Part shown: in pieces, positions 23,297 through 31,062 of the stretch
Position numbering within the stretch: position 1 is the first letter of the stretch
Layout: each line of letters starts with the position of its first letter
Assembly (NCBI GenBank): GCA_017303415.1
Contig: JAFLBJ010000001.1
Location: 1,798,001 to 1,862,000, forward strand
DNA from: Chitinophagales bacterium
GTDB taxonomy: Bacteria > Bacteroidota > Bacteroidia > Chitinophagales > Chitinophagaceae
Direction: 5' to 3'
Length of the DNA: 64,000 bases
The notes under the pieces: generated by a model
What the model saw: the letters and a program-made list of their open reading frames with translations, nothing else
What the model was told of the DNA's origin: nothing
Database searches by the model: none
Made by a program: the position numbers and the translations under genes

Positions 23297-24361
23297 ATGA
23301 TAGCATCTATGGAGATTTTGATCAGTAAGACCTTGAAAAGCCGGTTGCCGGAAACCAATCTGGAGAACATTCCCTTTGGCCGGGTATTTACCGACCACAT
23401 GTTGGAAGCGGATTATGAGAATGGGGAATGGAAACGGGTGGAGATTAAGCCATATCAGCCTTTGATGTTGGATCCTTCTCTATCCGCCCTGCATTATGGG
23501 CAGGCCATTTTTGAGGGTATCAAAGCGTATAAGGACCAGGAAGGAAATCCGGCGATATTCAGGCCTTATGATAATTTTCAACGGTTCAATAAGTCGGCTG
23601 TTCGGATGAATATGCCTGAAGTGCCTGAGGAGATATTCCTCGAGGGTATGCGTCAGCTCATTGAGCTGGACAAAGGATGGATCCCTTCTCAACAGGAACA
23701 TTCCCTGTATATCCGTCCCGTGATGTTTTCCTCCGATCCCATGCTGGGGGTACGTCCGTCAGATTCGTATAAATTCCTGATCATTTTAAGTCCGACAGGA
23801 CCCTATTACGCTACACCCATGCGTATCCTGGTGGAGCAGCATTTTACCCGGGCCTGTAAGGGTGGGGTAGGTTATTCCAAGAATGCGGGCAATTATGGGG
23901 GAAGCATGCTGGCGGCAACGATCGCCCGCGAAAAAGGATTTGACCAGGTGTTGTGGACCGATGCCGAAGAACACAAGTGGTTGCAGGAAGTGGGGATGAT
24001 GAATGTATTCTTTGTGATCGATGGGGTAGCGGTAACTCCTTCTTTGGAGGAGGGAACGATCCTGGCCGGGGTGACCCGCGACAGTGTCATCACAGGGTTG
24101 AAAGAAATGGGGGTAAAAGTGGAAGAACGCATGATCCATATCGACGAAGTGGTTAAAGCCTACCAGGAAGGCAGGCTGACGGAAGTTTTTGGAACAGGTA
24201 CCGCGGCCGTGATCGCACCCATCCGTGAATTGAATTACAACGGCTTTGCGATGGAATTCAATACCGGGGAATTCAAACACTCACCCGCCGTAAAGAGTTG
24301 GTTGACAGGGATCCGTGAAGGAAAGATCGCGGATGTCCACGGATGGATGTTTCGGGTATAA
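23297..24361 (+). CDS. ilvE: Branched-chain amino acid aminotransferase
   Basis: PLP class IV transaminase for Leu/Ile/Val, large (BCAT2-like) form, 354 aa from the ATG at 23297 (a second ATG at 23309 is also reasonable; the frame extends upstream but with an unlikely hydrophobic leader). Motifs: [14 protein letters not shown] near residue 70, [21 protein letters not shown], the PLP-lysine segment [13 protein letters not shown] near 195-210, [12 protein letters not shown], and [14 protein letters not shown]. Likely monocistronic: a textbook promoter for rpsL begins 17 nt after the stop. Divergent from the rdgB operon. Confidence 0.95.
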
Positions 24362-24377
24362 ATAATAATAATGAATT

Positions 24378-24409
24378 TTTGGTATTTACCCGGCAGGGCT
24401 TTACCTTTG
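24378..24409 (+). promoter_or_regulatory. Promoter of rpsL (perfect -33/-7)
   Basis: TTTG (24378-24381), 20 nt, TACCTTTG (24402-24409): an exact Bacteroidota primary-sigma promoter starting 17 nt after the ilvE stop and giving about a 20-nt leader for rpsL. Confidence 0.85.
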
Positions 24410-24435
24410 CCGTCCCAAAATTTAAAAGGTCCAGA

Positions 24436-24816
24436 ATGCCTACAATACAGCAACTTGTAAGAAAAGGAAGAGAAATTATCAAGGCGAAAAGCAAATCCCG
24501 TGCATTGGACAGCTGTCCTCAACGCCGCGGTGTTTGTACCCGTGTTTACACTACTACGCCTAAGAAACCGAACTCGGCGCTTCGTAAAGTTGCCAAGGTA
24601 CGTTTGACCAATAAGGTGGAGGTGATCGCCTATATTCCCGGTGAAGGCCACAACCTGCAGGAGCACTCCATCGTGTTGATCCGCGGGGGTCGTGTGAAGG
24701 ATCTTCCAGGTGTACGTTATCACATTGTTCGTGGTTCACTGGATACTGCCGGTGTAAAAGACCGTAAACAAAGCCGTTCCAAATACGGTACGAAGAAAGA
24801 AAAAGCCAAGAAATAA
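24436..24816 (+). CDS. rpsL: 30S ribosomal protein S12
   Basis: 126 aa; decoding-centre protein. Start [13 protein letters not shown] at 24436: the frame is open further upstream, but that stretch is the promoter. Conserved loops [17 protein letters not shown] near residues 40-56 (the streptomycin-resistance position here is KPNSA with Lys, wild-type sensitive) and [14 protein letters not shown] near 84-97 (the second str loop, also wild-type). Followed after 27 nt by rpsG. Confidence 0.97.
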
Positions 24817-24843
24817 TTTTTTAAATAGTCTATATCATTAGTC

Positions 24844-25311
24844 ATGCGGAAAGCACAAGCAAAAAAACTTCCTTTAGCACCCGATCCCAAATTCAATGAC
24901 AAACTGGTTACCCGGTTTGTAAACAACCTGATGTGGGAAGGCAAGAAGAGTGTTTCTTACGAGATCTTTTACAATGCCCTGGAGCGTGTAAACAAAGTAA
25001 CCGGCGAAGAAGGATATGATGTGTGGAAAAGAGCCCTCGCCAATGTTACACCTTCTGTTGAAGTGCGCAGCCGTCGTATCGGGGGTGCTACTTTTCAGAT
25101 CCCTACCGAGGTAAGAACTGACCGCAAGATCTCTCTCAGCATGAAATGGTTGATCCGTTACAGCCGCGAGCGCAATGGTCGCAGCATGGCCGACAAACTG
25201 GCGAACGAGATCGTAGCCGCAGCAAAAGGCGAAGGCGCTGCTTTCAAGAAAAAAGAAGATACCCATCGTATGGCTGAAGCCAACAAGGCTTTTGCCCACT
25301 TCCGGGTATAA
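24844..25311 (+). CDS. rpsG: 30S ribosomal protein S7
   Basis: 155 aa, full length. Typical N-terminus [17 protein letters not shown] and core [32 protein letters not shown], and [10 protein letters not shown] at the C-terminus. Second gene of the rpsL-rpsG unit, which ends here: a terminator and repeat R5 follow, and fusA has its own promoter. Confidence 0.97.
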
Positions 25312-25332
25312 CCAATAGCTTTTCAATGAAGA

Positions 25333-25360
25333 AAGCCATTCCTGAGGGAGTGGCTTTTTT
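25333..25360 (+). terminator. Rho-independent terminator after rpsG
   Basis: AAGCCATTCC pairs with GGAGTGGCTT across TGAGG-type loop bases (one mismatch), followed by TTTTTT. It lies 22 nt after the rpsG stop. Confidence 0.8.
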
Positions 25361-25368
25361 CGTTAAAG

Positions 25369-25405
25369 GCTAAAAGCTAATAGCTAATAGCTATTAGCTT
25401 TTAGC
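25369..25405. repeat. Inverted repeat R5 between rpsG and histone-like gene
   Basis: GCTAAAAGCTAATAG (25369-25383) pairs perfectly with 25391-25405. It contains the 18-bp perfect palindrome AGCTAATAGCTATTAGCT (25382-25399), which occurs identically at 41175-41192. It ends 11 nt before the stop of the convergent histone-like gene. Confidence 0.85.
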
Positions 25406-25415
25406 TTCTCAATAG

Positions 25416-25862
25416 TTACAGTTCCGGCCCTGTCGGTTCGTCATTGAACAGGGTAGGCGCTTCTACCACCGGAGGCGTAGGTTCCTGCTCTGTCACTGGT
25501 GGTGGCGGGGGAGGAGGCGTTACCACAGGCACCGGTTTGGGCGACGGTTTGCGGGCAACCACTTTCTTTTTAGGGGTAGCTTTTTTCACCGCTTTTTTCA
25601 CGGCTTTCTTCGCTGCCTTTTTTGCCGGTTTTTTAGCGACTTTCTTTTTGGCCACTTTTTTCACCGCTTTCTTAGCGGCCTTTTTCGCCGCTTTTTTCTT
25701 TGGAGCCGCTTTTTTCTTTACGGCTTTTTTGGCGGGTTTCTTTTTGGCGACGGCCTTCTTTGCGGCTTTTTTCACTTTTTTCTTTGGGGCCGCTTTTTTG
25801 GCCTTTTTAGCGGCTGGTTTTTTTGCAGCCACTTTCTTTTTGGTTTTCTTCTTTGCTGCCAT
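25416..25862 (-). CDS. Histone H1-like Lys/Ala-rich DNA-binding protein
   Basis: 148 aa. Residues 1-110 are almost entirely K, A, V and P in degenerate repeats of the 'KKAAKKAVKK / AAPKKK' type seen in eukaryotic H1 tails and in bacterial H1-like proteins (Hc1/AlgP types). Residues 111-148 form a Pro-rich, then acidic tail (PPPPPPPVTEQEPTPPVVEA). It presumably binds or condenses DNA non-specifically. It sits in reverse orientation between rpsG and fusA, splitting the usual str operon. The repetitive codons make length variation between strains likely. Confidence 0.8.
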   Translation of the reverse strand: MAAKKKTKKKVAAKKPAAKKAKKAAPKKKVKKAAKKAVAKKKPAKKAVKKKAAPKKKAAKKAAKKAVKKVAKKKVAKKPAKKAAKKAVKKAVKKATPKKKVVARKPSPKPVPVVTPPPPPPPVTEQEPTPPVVEAPTLFNDEPTGPEL

Positions 25863-25986
25863 AATGGGGGGTTTACTGGGGTTAAATTTGATGTGGGAAT
25901 GAAATTACTATGATTCACCAAATTCCCCTTGATTTTCGGGCAATTTAGTCTTGTTTCCCCCATTCCTGAACAATATTTCCCCATCC

Positions 25987-26017
25987 TTTGCCGGGTGGGT
26001 TTTTCTCACTACATTTG
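25987..26017 (+). promoter_or_regulatory. Promoter of fusA (perfect -33/-7)
   Basis: TTTG (25987-25990), 19 nt, TACATTTG (26010-26017), leaving a 31-nt leader before the fusA ATG. Confidence 0.85.
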
Positions 26018-26048
26018 CGCCTCCAAATTATTACCATAACGAACTATC

Positions 26049-28193
26049 ATGGCAGACTTAAAATTTCAACGGAATTTCGGTATCGCGGCACACATTGATG
26101 CCGGTAAAACAACGACTACCGAGCGTATCCTTCGTTATACCGGGATGATCCACCGGATCGGAGAGGTGCACGACGGTGCGGCTACCACCGACTGGATGGA
26201 GCAGGAAAAGGAGCGTGGTATCACCATTACTTCCGCGGCCGTTAGCTGTATGTGGAATTTCCCTACCGTATTGGGTAAGGCTACTCCCGATACCAAAAAA
26301 TATTATTTCAACATCATCGATACTCCGGGTCACGTGGACTTTACCGTGGAGGTAGAGCGTTCCATGCGTGTACTCGATGGACTGATCGCTTTGTTCTCTG
26401 CGGTTGACGGGGTAGAACCTCAGTCAGAAACCGTATGGCGCCAGGCCAACCGCTACGGGGTTCCCCGTATCGGGTTTGTCAACAAAATGGACCGTGCCGG
26501 TGCCGACTTCCTGAATGTCGTGAAGCAGGTGAAGGAAATGCTGGGTTCCAAAGCGGTTCCCCTGCAGCTCCCCATCGGTGCAGAAGACAATTTCAAAGGC
26601 GTGGTTGACCTGATCAAAATGAAAGGGATCATCTGGCACATGGAAACAGAGGGAATGACCTTTGATGAAATTGATATCCCCAACGATATGCTGGAAGAAG
26701 CCAAAGAATGGCGTGCCAGCCTGGTGGAAGCCGTGGCTGAATACGATGACCAGTTGATGGAGAAATTCTTTGATAATCCGGATACCATCTCCGAAGATGA
26801 AATCCACGAGGCCATCCGGAAAGCCACCATCGACCTCAGCATCGTACCGATGATGTGTGGATCTTCCTTCAAGAACAAAGGGGTACAAACAGCCCTGGAT
26901 GCCGTTTGCCGCTACCTTCCTTCCCCGATCGATATTCCTGATACAAAAGGAACCAATCCTGATAATGGGGAAGAACTCGTGCGCAGAGCGGATCCCAAAG
27001 ACCCCTTTGCCGCCCTTGCATTTAAGATCATGACCGATCCCTTTGTGGGTCGTCTGGCCTTCTTCCGTGTGTATAGCGGACGCCTTGATGCCGGTTCTTA
27101 TGTACTGAACGTACGGAGCGGTAAGAAAGAGCGTATCAGCCGTATCATGAAGATGTTTGCCAATAAACAAAACCCGATCGATTTCATCGAAGCAGGTGAT
27201 ATCGGCGCGGCGGTTGGTTTCAAAGAGATCAAAACAGGGGATACCCTTTGTGATGAGAACCATCCGATCACCCTCGAGAACATGTTCATCCCTGAGCCTG
27301 TGATCGCAATCGCCGTGGAACCTAAAACACAAGCCGACGTAGATAAAATGGGTATGGCCATTGCCAAACTCGTGGAAGAAGATCCTACGCTGCGGGTAAA
27401 TACCGATGAAGATACCGGTCAAACCATTCTTCGCGGAATGGGTGAATTGCACCTGGAGATCATCATCGACCGGATGCGTCGTGAATTCAAAGTAGAAGTG
27501 AACCAGGGAGCACCCCAGGTGGCTTATAAAGAAGCATTCAATGCGACTGTGGAACACCGTGAGGTGCTGAAAAAGCAAACCGGTGGTCGTGGTAAATTCG
27601 CGGACATCATGTTCACCCTGGGTCCCGTGGATGCCGACTGGAAAGCAGAGAACCCCGACAAACACTTCCAATTCGTAAACAATATCGTAGGTGGTTCCAT
27701 TCCGCGTGAATTCATTACGCCGATCCAGAAAGGTTTCGAGCAGTCAATGACCACGGGTGTATTGGCCAACTATCCGGTTGACAATATGAAGATCCGCATC
27801 TTCGACGGTGGTTTCCACGCGGTTGACTCCGATGCGATGTCCTTTGAATTGTGTGCCAAGCAAGGTTTCCGCGAAGCGGCCCGTAAAGCCAAACCGATCC
27901 TGCTGGAACCCATCATGCGTGTGGAAGTAGTAACACCCGATCAGTACATGGGTGATGTGACCGGTGACCTTAACCGCCGTCGTGGTATGATGGAAGGAAT
28001 GGACAGCCGTAACAATGCCCAGGTGATCAAGGCCAAAGTGCCCCTGAGCGAAATGTTTGGCTATGTAACGCAATTGCGTTCCATGTCATCCGGACGTGCT
28101 TCCTCTACCATGGAATTCTCTCACTACGCACCTACACCGAATAATATTTCGGAGGAAGTGATCGCGAAAGTGAAAGGAAAAGTGAATGCATAA
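26049..28193 (+). CDS. fusA: Elongation factor G
   Basis: Translocation GTPase, 714 aa. G1 [15 protein letters not shown] near residue 14, G2/switch [17 protein letters not shown]3 DTPGHVDF near 95, G4 NKMDRAGAD near 147; then domain II ([20 protein letters not shown]), domain III ([25 protein letters not shown]), domain IV ([19 protein letters not shown]) and domain V ([27 protein letters not shown]). Complete and canonical. Monocistronic: its own promoter in front and a strong terminator behind, with no rpsJ following. Confidence 0.97.
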
Positions 28194-28213
28194 GACCTGT
28201 TGAACTTTTATAG

Positions 28214-28239
28214 AAACCCCGCCCTATGCGGGGTTTTTT
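28214..28239 (+). terminator. Rho-independent terminator after fusA
   Basis: AAACCCCGC (28214-28222) pairs with GCGGGGTTT (28228-28236) across a 5-nt loop, with the T-run continuing to 28239. The kdsA -7 box begins 3 nt later. Confidence 0.9.
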
Positions 28240-28255: not shown

Positions 28256-29095
28256 ATGAGTGAAAAAATTGTCAAAGTAGGTGGCATACCTTGTGGAGCG
28301 GATGAACTCTTTGTCATCTCCGGTCCCTGTGTGATCGAAGAAGAAAGCATCATGCTGAAAACAGCAGAGATGTTGAAAGAAGTGAGTGAACGATTGAAGG
28401 TCCCCATCATCTACAAGTCCTCTTTTTTGAAAGACAACCGGAGCAGCATCAAATACTATGATGGTCCCGGCATGGATAAAGGCCTCAAGATCCTGGCCCG
28501 TATCAAAGCAGAATTTGGTTTTCCTGTCCTTACCGATATTCATTACCCCGACCAGGCAGCGCCTGTAGCGGAAGTATGTGATGTACTCCAGATTCCGGCC
28601 TATCTGTGTATGCAGACAGGTTTATTGACCGCTGCAGCCAAGACCGGCAAAGTGATCAATATCAAACATGGTCAGTTCCTGGCACCGGAGAACATGAAAC
28701 ACCCGGTCCAGAAATGTATCGATTCGGGAAACGACCAGGTGATCCTCACCGAACGGGGATATACCTTCGGGTACAATGACCTGGTGGTGGACCCCCGCAG
28801 TTTTTACCATATGCAAAAGACCGGTTACCCGGTTGTATTCGATATCACCCACTCCATCCGTAAGTATGGAATCCCCAGCGCCGATGCCAAAGGCGGTGCG
28901 CGTGAATTCCTGCCCGTCCTGAGCCGTTCGGGTGTGGCTGCAGGTGTAGATGGCATCTTTGTGGAAACCCATCCTGAGCCGGAAAAAGCCCTCTGTGACG
29001 CGGCCAGCCAGCTTTGTGTGTATGACCTGGAAGAATTCCTCAAGCCCTTACTGGAACTTCATGCCGTGGAAGTGAAATACCGTGCCCGGTCATAA
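28256..29095 (+). CDS. kdsA: 3-deoxy-8-phosphooctulonate synthase
   Basis: Condenses PEP with arabinose-5-phosphate to KDO-8-phosphate for LPS. 279 aa. Start MSEKIVKVGG at 28256; the frame extends upstream only into promoter and terminator DNA. Motifs: SGPCVIEEES near residue 25, YKSSFLKDNRSS near 55 (PEP and A5P binding), GPGMDKGLKIL, FPVLTDIHYPDQA, IPAYLCMQTGLL, NIKHGQFLAPENM, RGYTFGYNDLVVDPRSF, FDITHSIRKYG, and FVETHPEP near 245. First gene of a kdsA / transaldolase-CBS / kdsC-like cluster. Confidence 0.96.
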   Translation: MSEKIVKVGGIPCGADELFVISGPCVIEEESIMLKTAEMLKEVSERLKVPIIYKSSFLKDNRSSIKYYDGPGMDKGLKILARIKAEFGFPVLTDIHYPDQAAPVAEVCDVLQIPAYLCMQTGLLTAAAKTGKVINIKHGQFLAPENMKHPVQKCIDSGNDQVILTERGYTFGYNDLVVDPRSFYHMQKTGYPVVFDITHSIRKYGIPSADAKGGAREFLPVLSRSGVAAGVDGIFVETHPEPEKALCDAASQLCVYDLEEFLKPLLELHAVEVKYRARS

Positions 29096-29150: not shown

Positions 29151-30155
29151 ATGGAACTATACCTTGATTCCGCCAATTTGAAAGAGATCAGGCAAGCCTT
29201 TAAACTTGGTTTCCTGAACGGACTGACCACTACGCCCACCTTTATGCAAAGGGAAGGGATCGCCGATATCGATGCCACCATTGTGGAACTGTCTAAGATC
29301 GTTCCGGTGCTGCAGATCGAAGCACTGGGAAATTCCGCAGAAGAGATTTTGGCGGAAGCCCAACGTCAGCTTGACCTCGGGCTGGATATCAATAAAACCG
29401 TATTTAAGATCCCAGTTTCTCTGGAAGGTGTAAGGGCTTGTAAAATGCTTCGCGATAAAGGGATGTTGGTGAATGTACACCTGGTGTACACGGTTCAACA
29501 GGCCTATATGGCGATGCAGGCCGGCGCTACCTATGTATGCCCGCTTGTAGGTCGTCTCCAGGACCAGGGTCATGATGCCCTCGCCCTCGTTGAACAATGT
29601 GTAAATGCCGTTAACCGATATAAATACCCAACCAAGGTTATGTTCAGCTCTGTTCGTCACAGTGAACATGTAAGAAACGCGATCAATATCGGGGTACACA
29701 CCATTACCGTTCCCTATAAAGTGATGGCCGCGCTTACGGAAAATAACCTGACCAGTGTTGGTACGGATCAGTTTATACGTGATACTCGTCTGATGACAGT
29801 ACGCGTAAAAGATGCGATCAAAGACATCAATCCCGTTGTAGATGGAGGAGTGGCCGTAAAAGATGCCATTGTGAAGATGACCGAATTTGGTTTTGGCTCC
29901 GTGGCCGTGTTGAATGGCGATGGTAGTCTGAAAGGGATATTTACCGATAGCGACCTTCGCCGCTTACTCCAATCCAGCGGACAAGGCGTATTGGATAAAA
30001 AACTGGGGGATGTTTGCCATGCCAATCCATTGACGATCGATGGCCAGGCCCTGTTGAATGAAGCCGCCCAGGTCTTCAAGCAAACGGCAGTGGATACCTT
30101 GTTGGTGGTGGAGAATGGCAAACCGGTCGGGATGCTGGATATCCAGGACCTCTAA
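29151..30155 (+). CDS. TalC/FSA-like aldolase domain fused to a KdsD-like CBS pair
   Basis: 334 aa. Residues 1-212 follow the small transaldolase/fructose-6-phosphate aldolase fold: MELYLDSANLKEI, GLTTTPTFM, the Schiff-base lysine K86 in TVFKIPVSLEG, YVCPLVGRLQDQGHD, VMFSSVRHSEHVRNA and TITVPYKV. The normally conserved Asn of TTNPS is Thr28 here (TTTPT). Residues 215-334 are two CBS motifs, including GIFTDSDLRRLL and PVGMLDIQDL, very like the C-terminal CBS pair of KdsD (arabinose-5-phosphate isomerase). It lies between kdsA and a kdsC-like gene, exactly where KdsD activity is needed. Inferred role: production of arabinose-5-phosphate, or its regulation, for KDO. An unrelated transaldolase function remains possible. 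Confidence 0.8.
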   Translation: MELYLDSANLKEIRQAFKLGFLNGLTTTPTFMQREGIADIDATIVELSKIVPVLQIEALGNSAEEILAEAQRQLDLGLDINKTVFKIPVSLEGVRACKMLRDKGMLVNVHLVYTVQQAYMAMQAGATYVCPLVGRLQDQGHDALALVEQCVNAVNRYKYPTKVMFSSVRHSEHVRNAINIGVHTITVPYKVMAALTENNLTSVGTDQFIRDTRLMTVRVKDAIKDINPVVDGGVAVKDAIVKMTEFGFGSVAVLNGDGSLKGIFTDSDLRRLLQSSGQGVLDKKLGDVCHANPLTIDGQALLNEAAQVFKQTAVDTLLVVENGKPVGMLDIQDL

Positions 30156-30169
30156 CTGAAACCGCGAAA

Positions 30170-30841
30170 ATGCAGGACATTCCATTTGCAGGCACTTTTG
30201 TTACCTCCCGGGAACAGCTGACGCAAAAACTGTCTGGCATAAAAGCCTTTGTTTTTGACTGGGACGGGGTGTTCAATGATGGACAAAAAGATATCAGTGG
30301 TTCCAGCACCTTTAGCGAAGTCGATGCCATGGGTACCAACCTGCTCCGGTTCAACCATTTTCTTACGCATCAGCAATTACCGGTGACCGCCGTTATTTCC
30401 GGTGAAAAGAACGAGATATCTTTTTCCTTTGCCCGAAGGGAACATTTTCATGCCGTTTATTTCGGGATTAAGCACAAGATTCAGGCACTTGAGCATTTTT
30501 GTGCCCAACATAAATTACAAGCATCCGAAATTGCTTTTATTTTCGATGATGTATTGGATTTCTCTATAGCAGAAGTGGCGGGGTTACGGATCATGATCGG
30601 AAGATCCTCCACTTTGTTATTACAGGAATTTGCCAAAAAGAATAATCTGGTAGACTATATCACCGGCTCCGATGGTGGGGCACATGGCCTGCGGGAAAGC
30701 GCTGAATTATTGATGGGATTGTCCGGCAATTATAGCGATACCATCGAACATCGGATGCGGAGCAGCGAATTATACAAAACCTATCTTTCATCCAGAAATG
30801 AAGCCGAGACGGTGTTGTTTGGGCCGGGTGAGATAGGGTAG
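30170..30841 (+). CDS. KdsC-like HAD phosphatase
   Basis: Probable KDO-8-phosphate phosphatase of the HAD superfamily (C0, capless), 223 aa. HAD motif I FVFDWDGVFNDG at about residues 27-38 (KdsC usually has DVDGV.TDG; here Val is replaced by Trp), motif II VISGEKN near 79, motif III FDDVLDFSIAEVAG near 125, and GGAHGLRESAELLM, equivalent to the KdsC C-terminal GGRGAVRE segment. About 40 extra residues follow the usual KdsC end (GNYSDTIEHRMRSSELYKTY...). 14 nt after the transaldolase-CBS gene. The stop is followed at once by repeat R6. Confidence 0.85.
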   Translation: MQDIPFAGTFVTSREQLTQKLSGIKAFVFDWDGVFNDGQKDISGSSTFSEVDAMGTNLLRFNHFLTHQQLPVTAVISGEKNEISFSFARREHFHAVYFGIKHKIQALEHFCAQHKLQASEIAFIFDDVLDFSIAEVAGLRIMIGRSSTLLLQEFAKKNNLVDYITGSDGGAHGLRESAELLMGLSGNYSDTIEHRMRSSELYKTYLSSRNEAETVLFGPGEIG

Positions 30842-30848
30842 GTGGGGG

Positions 30849-31050
30849 TGGATGACGGATGTTGGAGGTTGGATGTTGTAAGTTGGATGACTGATGACAG
30901 ATGACAGATGACAGAGGCAGTGCGAGACCTCTGGTCTCGCACTGCAAACCTCCGCCATCTGTCATCTGTCATCAGTCATCCAACATCCAACATCCGTCAT
31001 CTGTCATCCGTCATCAGTCATCAGTCATCTGTCATCCAACATCCATCATC
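30849..31050. repeat. Large composite inverted repeat R6 between kdsC-like gene and threonine dehydrogenase gene
   Basis: About 200 bp of words. The left arm has GGATGTTGG-type then GATGACAG-type words; the right arm has the complements in mirrored order (CTGTCAT, then CCAACAT), followed by a further set of mixed words. At the centre is a 12-bp hairpin, GCAGTGCGAGAC (30917-30928) with 30934-30945 and a 5-nt loop. Its inner 9 bp are identical to the core of R4. The whole upstream region of the next gene consists of this element. Confidence 0.85.
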
Positions 31051-31062
31051 AAACAACCAACA

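Follow-up and report, generated by a model that had tools for sequence, protein, structure and literature searches.

Kdo is nearly universal in the outer membrane of Gram-negative bacteria, and the only established source of D-arabinose 5-phosphate (A5P) known to us is isomerisation of the KdsD type. The enzymes in question (KdsD/GutQ/KpsF, TIGR00393) act on ribulose 5-phosphate and combine an N-terminal SIS domain with a C-terminal CBS pair. The native role of the FSA-type aldolases, which belong to the class I enzymes with a Schiff-base lysine, is unclear. E. coli FsaA and FsaB, which have no CBS pair, have been reported to form A5P from glycolaldehyde as the donor and glyceraldehyde-3-phosphate as the acceptor (PMC6298115), and this reaction has been used in vivo (PMC9947464). 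In addition, PDB entry 3upb is, by its title, a transaldolase with arabinose-5-phosphate covalently attached, so the TAL_FSA family is capable of forming the product of KdsD. Here we analyse a stretch of 64,000 nt from a Chitinophagales bacterium (the window, to which all coordinates refer), in which a domain of this family is fused to a CBS pair within a Kdo gene cluster. The open literature that we searched contains no account of a fusion of this kind, which does not exclude one elsewhere, and to our knowledge the replacement of KdsD by such a protein has not been described before.

The fusion gene (29151..30155, +) encodes 334 amino acids and lies between kdsA (28256..29095, +), whose product meets the KDO-8-phosphate synthase model TIGR01362 (339.7 bits against a cut-off of 314), and a gene for a kdsC-like HAD phosphatase that begins 14 bp 3' of the fusion (30170..30841, +) and matches the KdsC model NF007019 with an E-value of 1.5e-15, below the cut-off. 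The open reading frame of kdsA is listed from 28226, within a terminator-like hairpin that separates it from fusA (28212..28238, +); its likely start is the ATG at 28256. The cassette is directly preceded, beyond the hairpin, by rpsL, rpsG and fusA (24343-28193), and a lysine/alanine-rich, histone H1-like protein of 148 residues is encoded on the opposite strand between rpsG and fusA (25416-25862, -). On the other side, a repetitive stretch (CATCCATCAGTCATC-like, 30841-31060) stands ahead of a gene for a NAD-dependent epimerase, whose listed start at 30901 reads through the repeats and is probably too early.

The N-terminal part of the fusion protein (residues 1-214; 29151..29792, +) is a TIM barrel of the transaldolase/FSA superfamily: the Pfam family TAL_FSA (PF00923) spans residues 3-202 with an E-value of 4e-36 and a score of 125.1 bits against a gathering score of 27, and both the barrel and the Schiff-base lysine are present. 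The AlphaFold model of the whole protein has a mean pLDDT of 88, and its residues 1-197 align to the transaldolases of T. maritima and T. acidophilum with Z 28 and an rmsd of 1.4. The TalC-type transaldolases (B. subtilis, T. maritima, T. acidophilum) are the closest in fold (Z about 28, 33-35% identity), but they differ from the fusion in lacking the CBS pair, the Kdo gene linkage and four invariant substitutions discussed below. Full-length relatives with 72-88% identity are encoded at 80 loci, which rules out a chance reading frame or an artefact of assembly. The arrangement given in the original prediction, an aldolase-CBS fusion between kdsA and a kdsC-like gene, is confirmed by the position of the reading frame and by its Pfam domains.

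The C-terminal part (residues 226-334; 29826..30152, +) is a CBS pair, which in Pfam reaches residue 334 with an E-value of 5e-16. It is of the KdsD type, nearest to the CBS pairs of A5P isomerases in sequence, predicted fold and phylogeny. Residues 215-329 match positions 153-267 only of TIGR00393 (E 7e-16), and the fusion, having no N-terminal SIS domain, fails membership of that family (58.7 bits against a cut-off of 203.7). Among PDB sequences, the CBS part is matched best by that of the A5P isomerase structure 4o9k (E 1.4e-17), which contains CMP-Kdo; when the pair was modelled alone, the first structural matches were again CBS pairs of A5P isomerases, with 4o9k at the top and 3k2v behind it. 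In a phylogenetic tree, the CBS pairs of the fusion and of KdsD form one group (support 99/93), outside which fall both the stand-alone CBS proteins and IMPDH. A generic CBS origin is thus less likely, with the caution that the branches are long and the outgroups few. The resemblance to the CBS pair of KdsD that had been noted in the original prediction is borne out by all these comparisons.

The active site of the aldolase domain was compared between 88 fusion proteins and 27 ordinary TalC/FSA proteins. Asp6, Glu57, Lys86, Asn108, Arg135, Ser167 and Arg169 are invariant in the former and the same in the latter; they include the Schiff-base lysine (Lys86, equivalent to Lys85 of E. coli FSA; 29406..29408, +), which the original prediction had named correctly. 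Four positions, on the other hand, are fixed differences (N28T, T110H, S130C and F132L in 88/88 fusions and in 0/27 ordinary proteins). The first of them, noted earlier as the change of the TTNPS motif to TTTPT, places Thr28 (29232..29234, +) at the site of an Asn of the donor pocket that all 27 ordinary TalC proteins retain. The second places His110 (29478..29480, +) at the site of the Thr that corresponds to Thr109 of FSA, a ligand of the catalytic water. In FSA, the donor is contacted by Asp6 and Asn28, the latter being a determinant of donor choice, the donor pocket is lined by Ala129, and the catalytic water is held by Gln59, Thr109 and Tyr131 (PMC13259622). The fusion has Thr28, Glu57, His110 and Leu132 in place of Asn28, Gln59, Thr109 and Tyr131, and hence does not meet the FSA set; nor does it qualify as a TalC transaldolase, all four defining residues (Asn28, Thr110, Ser130, Phe132) being replaced. 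With the phosphate-binding residues retained and the donor pocket changed, the acceptor is likely to be phosphorylated and the donor to be something else than dihydroxyacetone.

The genome that contains the window (3.7 Mb, 99.99% complete) encodes KdsA, KdsB and WaaA, the latter two over the cut-offs, and should therefore need A5P. A search for SIS domains returned four matches, two of them in a GlmS of 617 residues and one each in MurQ and GmhA (names assigned from sequence and neighbours), and no KdsD, which rules out a copy hidden elsewhere in the genome. In a sample of 149 genomes from the order, KdsD was found over the cut-off in 90, KdsA in 111 and the fusion in four. Among the genomes with kdsA, KdsD is present in 0/4 of those with the fusion and in 87/107 of the others (Fisher p 0.0018). 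In the window's own family, KdsD is present in 29 of the 32 sampled genomes and the remaining three are exactly those with the fusion (0/3 against 29/29, Fisher p 2e-4); neither test was corrected for relatedness. Both states occur even within one genus, where G091 has the fusion without KdsD and G386 and G398 have KdsD without the fusion. Of 56 genomes that bear the fusion, 53 lack KdsD; the other three, which carry both, are all MAGs, and one of them (G476) additionally has a second, canonical kdsA. We also considered an isomerase without CBS domains in the fusion genomes, but none was found; where enzymes of this kind do occur, outside the fusion set, their E-values against TIGR00393 are about 1e-40 to 1e-55.

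Several observations concern genomes outside the fusion set. Nine near-complete genomes of one family (f64) and G418, from the same order as the window genome, have a canonical kdsA and neither KdsD nor the fusion. In the kdsA neighbourhoods read from this group (L129, L130, L133 and L135, out of L129-L135), no gene for a sugar isomerase lies beside kdsA; these genomes have another, unexplained source of A5P. Ten further genomes encode a SIS isomerase of about 200 residues without CBS domains, which in all ten matches TIGR00393 at positions 1-156 only and which, at the two loci that were read (L138 and L139), lies directly upstream of kdsA.

Apart from excluding KdsD, the fusion goes with one subtype of KdsA. 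Measured against the KdsA of the window, the fusion-linked proteins score 463-651 bits and the other KdsA of the order 214-250 bits, and the two form separate clades with 100% SH-aLRT support. The linked KdsA have Asp70, Met129, His148, Arg212 and Tyr214 where Ala, Arg, Lys, Gln and Pro are found elsewhere (59/59 against 0/13), and Met129 aligns to Arg106 of the A. aeolicus enzyme. Since these positions are constant in ordinary KdsA, a substrate other than A5P is possible. Around the fusion, the kdsC-like gene, with invariant HAD motifs, is found downstream in 66/80 loci, kdsA in 28/80 and kdsB in 23/80, and no other isomerase is conserved in these neighbourhoods. The original prediction that the fusion may replace KdsD is upheld: the search for a SIS-domain KdsD and the survey of the fusion against kdsA and kdsD, by which it was to be checked, came out in its favour through the absence of KdsD, the mutual exclusion and the tie to one kdsA subtype, and the grouping of the CBS pairs supports it too. 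Its proposal that A5P is formed by aldol chemistry remains an inference. It overlooked the remodelling of KdsA and the link to the 8-amino-Kdo genes kdnA and kdnB.

The kdnA-kdnB genes are known from the Kdo8N system of Shewanella, in the described form of which we know of no aldolase-CBS gene. KdnA-like (PDB match 5k8b, E 3e-131) and KdnB-like (5k8c, E 2e-122) genes lie upstream of the fusion in 25/80 loci each, and KdnB is encoded in 49/55 fusion genomes with 71-100% identity to the query, compared to 44-50% for the KdnB of 23 genomes of the order that lack the fusion. Two KdnB clades thus occur in Chitinophagaceae (G091, G386/G398 and others), one with the fusion set and one with KdsD, and Kdo8N could be widespread there. 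KdnB is absent from three fusion-bearing genomes (the window genome, G383 and G364), indicating that it is KdsA, and not the amino step, with which the fusion is associated.

We consider the replacement of KdsD by the fusion well supported: the two proteins share a homologous C-terminal CBS pair and the same place in the pathway beside kdsA and kdsC, and their occurrence is mutually exclusive, while the SIS domain of one corresponds to a class I aldolase domain in the other. With less assurance, and without an assay, we favour the interpretation that the fusion does the work of KdsD by making the aldose phosphate used by KdsA, most likely A5P, under feedback through the CBS pair. In the inferred reaction, the two-carbon donor glycolaldehyde would be bound to Lys86 as a Schiff base, the resulting enamine would attack glyceraldehyde-3-phosphate bound by Arg135, Ser167 and Arg169, and A5P would be released and supplied to the neighbouring KdsA. 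The enzyme would thus use C3 and C2 compounds instead of ribulose 5-phosphate. The CBS pair, whose ligand is likewise inferred, would respond to a product of the pathway, such as CMP-Kdo, or to a nucleotide, and tune the aldolase in the way presumed for KdsD. Other chemistries of the barrel were considered on the grounds of reasoning alone: ketose-aldose isomerisation is unlikely, as a Schiff base at C2 gives no 1,2-carbonyl shift, and a classical transaldolase transfer of C3 units could not yield A5P from common donors. Against the proposal, we identified no gene for the production of glycolaldehyde, and known minor sources of it, e.g. folate synthesis, might not cover what Kdo synthesis requires. 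The alterations of the linked KdsA, the three MAGs that carry both proteins and the kdsA-bearing genomes that have neither also speak against it. It is only tentatively that we suggest the complete scenario: a second natural entry into Kdo synthesis, in which a class I aldolase with a donor pocket rebuilt for C2 units makes A5P or a close analogue from glyceraldehyde-3-phosphate, is subject to feedback through a CBS pair derived from KdsD, and is accompanied by its own lineage of KdsA and KdsC.

The remodelling of KdsA and of the aldolase pocket together raises the question of whether the two enzymes form a matched pair for a different aldose phosphate, one made from another donor or with other stereochemistry, the octulosonate then being a Kdo variant or arising by way of another intermediate. 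The presence of kdnB in most fusion genomes, with kdnA next to it in many loci, would agree with this. However, Kdo8N derives from Kdo itself, the second KdnB clade is found in KdsD-bearing relatives, and the window genome, without KdnB and with KdsB and WaaA over the cut-offs, appears to make ordinary Kdo, so we regard a different sugar as unlikely.

We find it slightly harder still to accept that the fusion is merely a regulator or a metabolite sensor of the Kdo operon, with A5P supplied by an isomerase of an unrecognised family. CBS pairs are regulatory by nature, and the f64 genomes and G418 demonstrate that some unknown source of A5P exists in the order; yet all 88 proteins have kept the Schiff-base lysine, Asp6, Glu57 and the residues that bind phosphate, as an active enzyme should, no other isomerase is conserved beside the fusion, and the one-for-one swap with KdsD points to the same job. 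That the protein is an ordinary transaldolase or fructose-6-phosphate aldolase, with its CBS pair and operon position incidental, has little in its favour beyond the TAL_FSA fold and the Pfam match, and appears very improbable: the score against the fructose-6-phosphate aldolase equivalog of NCBIfam (TIGR00875) is 168.8 bits, below the cut-off of 245.95, every relative departs from the ordinary proteins at four positions of the pocket, and the exclusion of KdsD would remain unexplained. Moreover, the genome encodes a separate, ordinary TalC, so that the fusion is not required for the pentose-phosphate pathway.

If the fusion indeed substitutes for KdsD, a replacement enzyme of unrelated fold would alter how genomes are interpreted with regard to Kdo synthesis, would show where inhibitors of KdsD cannot work, and would give the FSA-type aldolases, and aldol chemistry, a physiological role. 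The exact swap between KdsD and the fusion inside one family and one genus makes the proposal directly testable. Some Bacteroidota without the usual A5P-making enzyme carry instead a rebuilt aldolase joined to its sensor domain, which suggests that the essential Kdo pathway has a second natural start.
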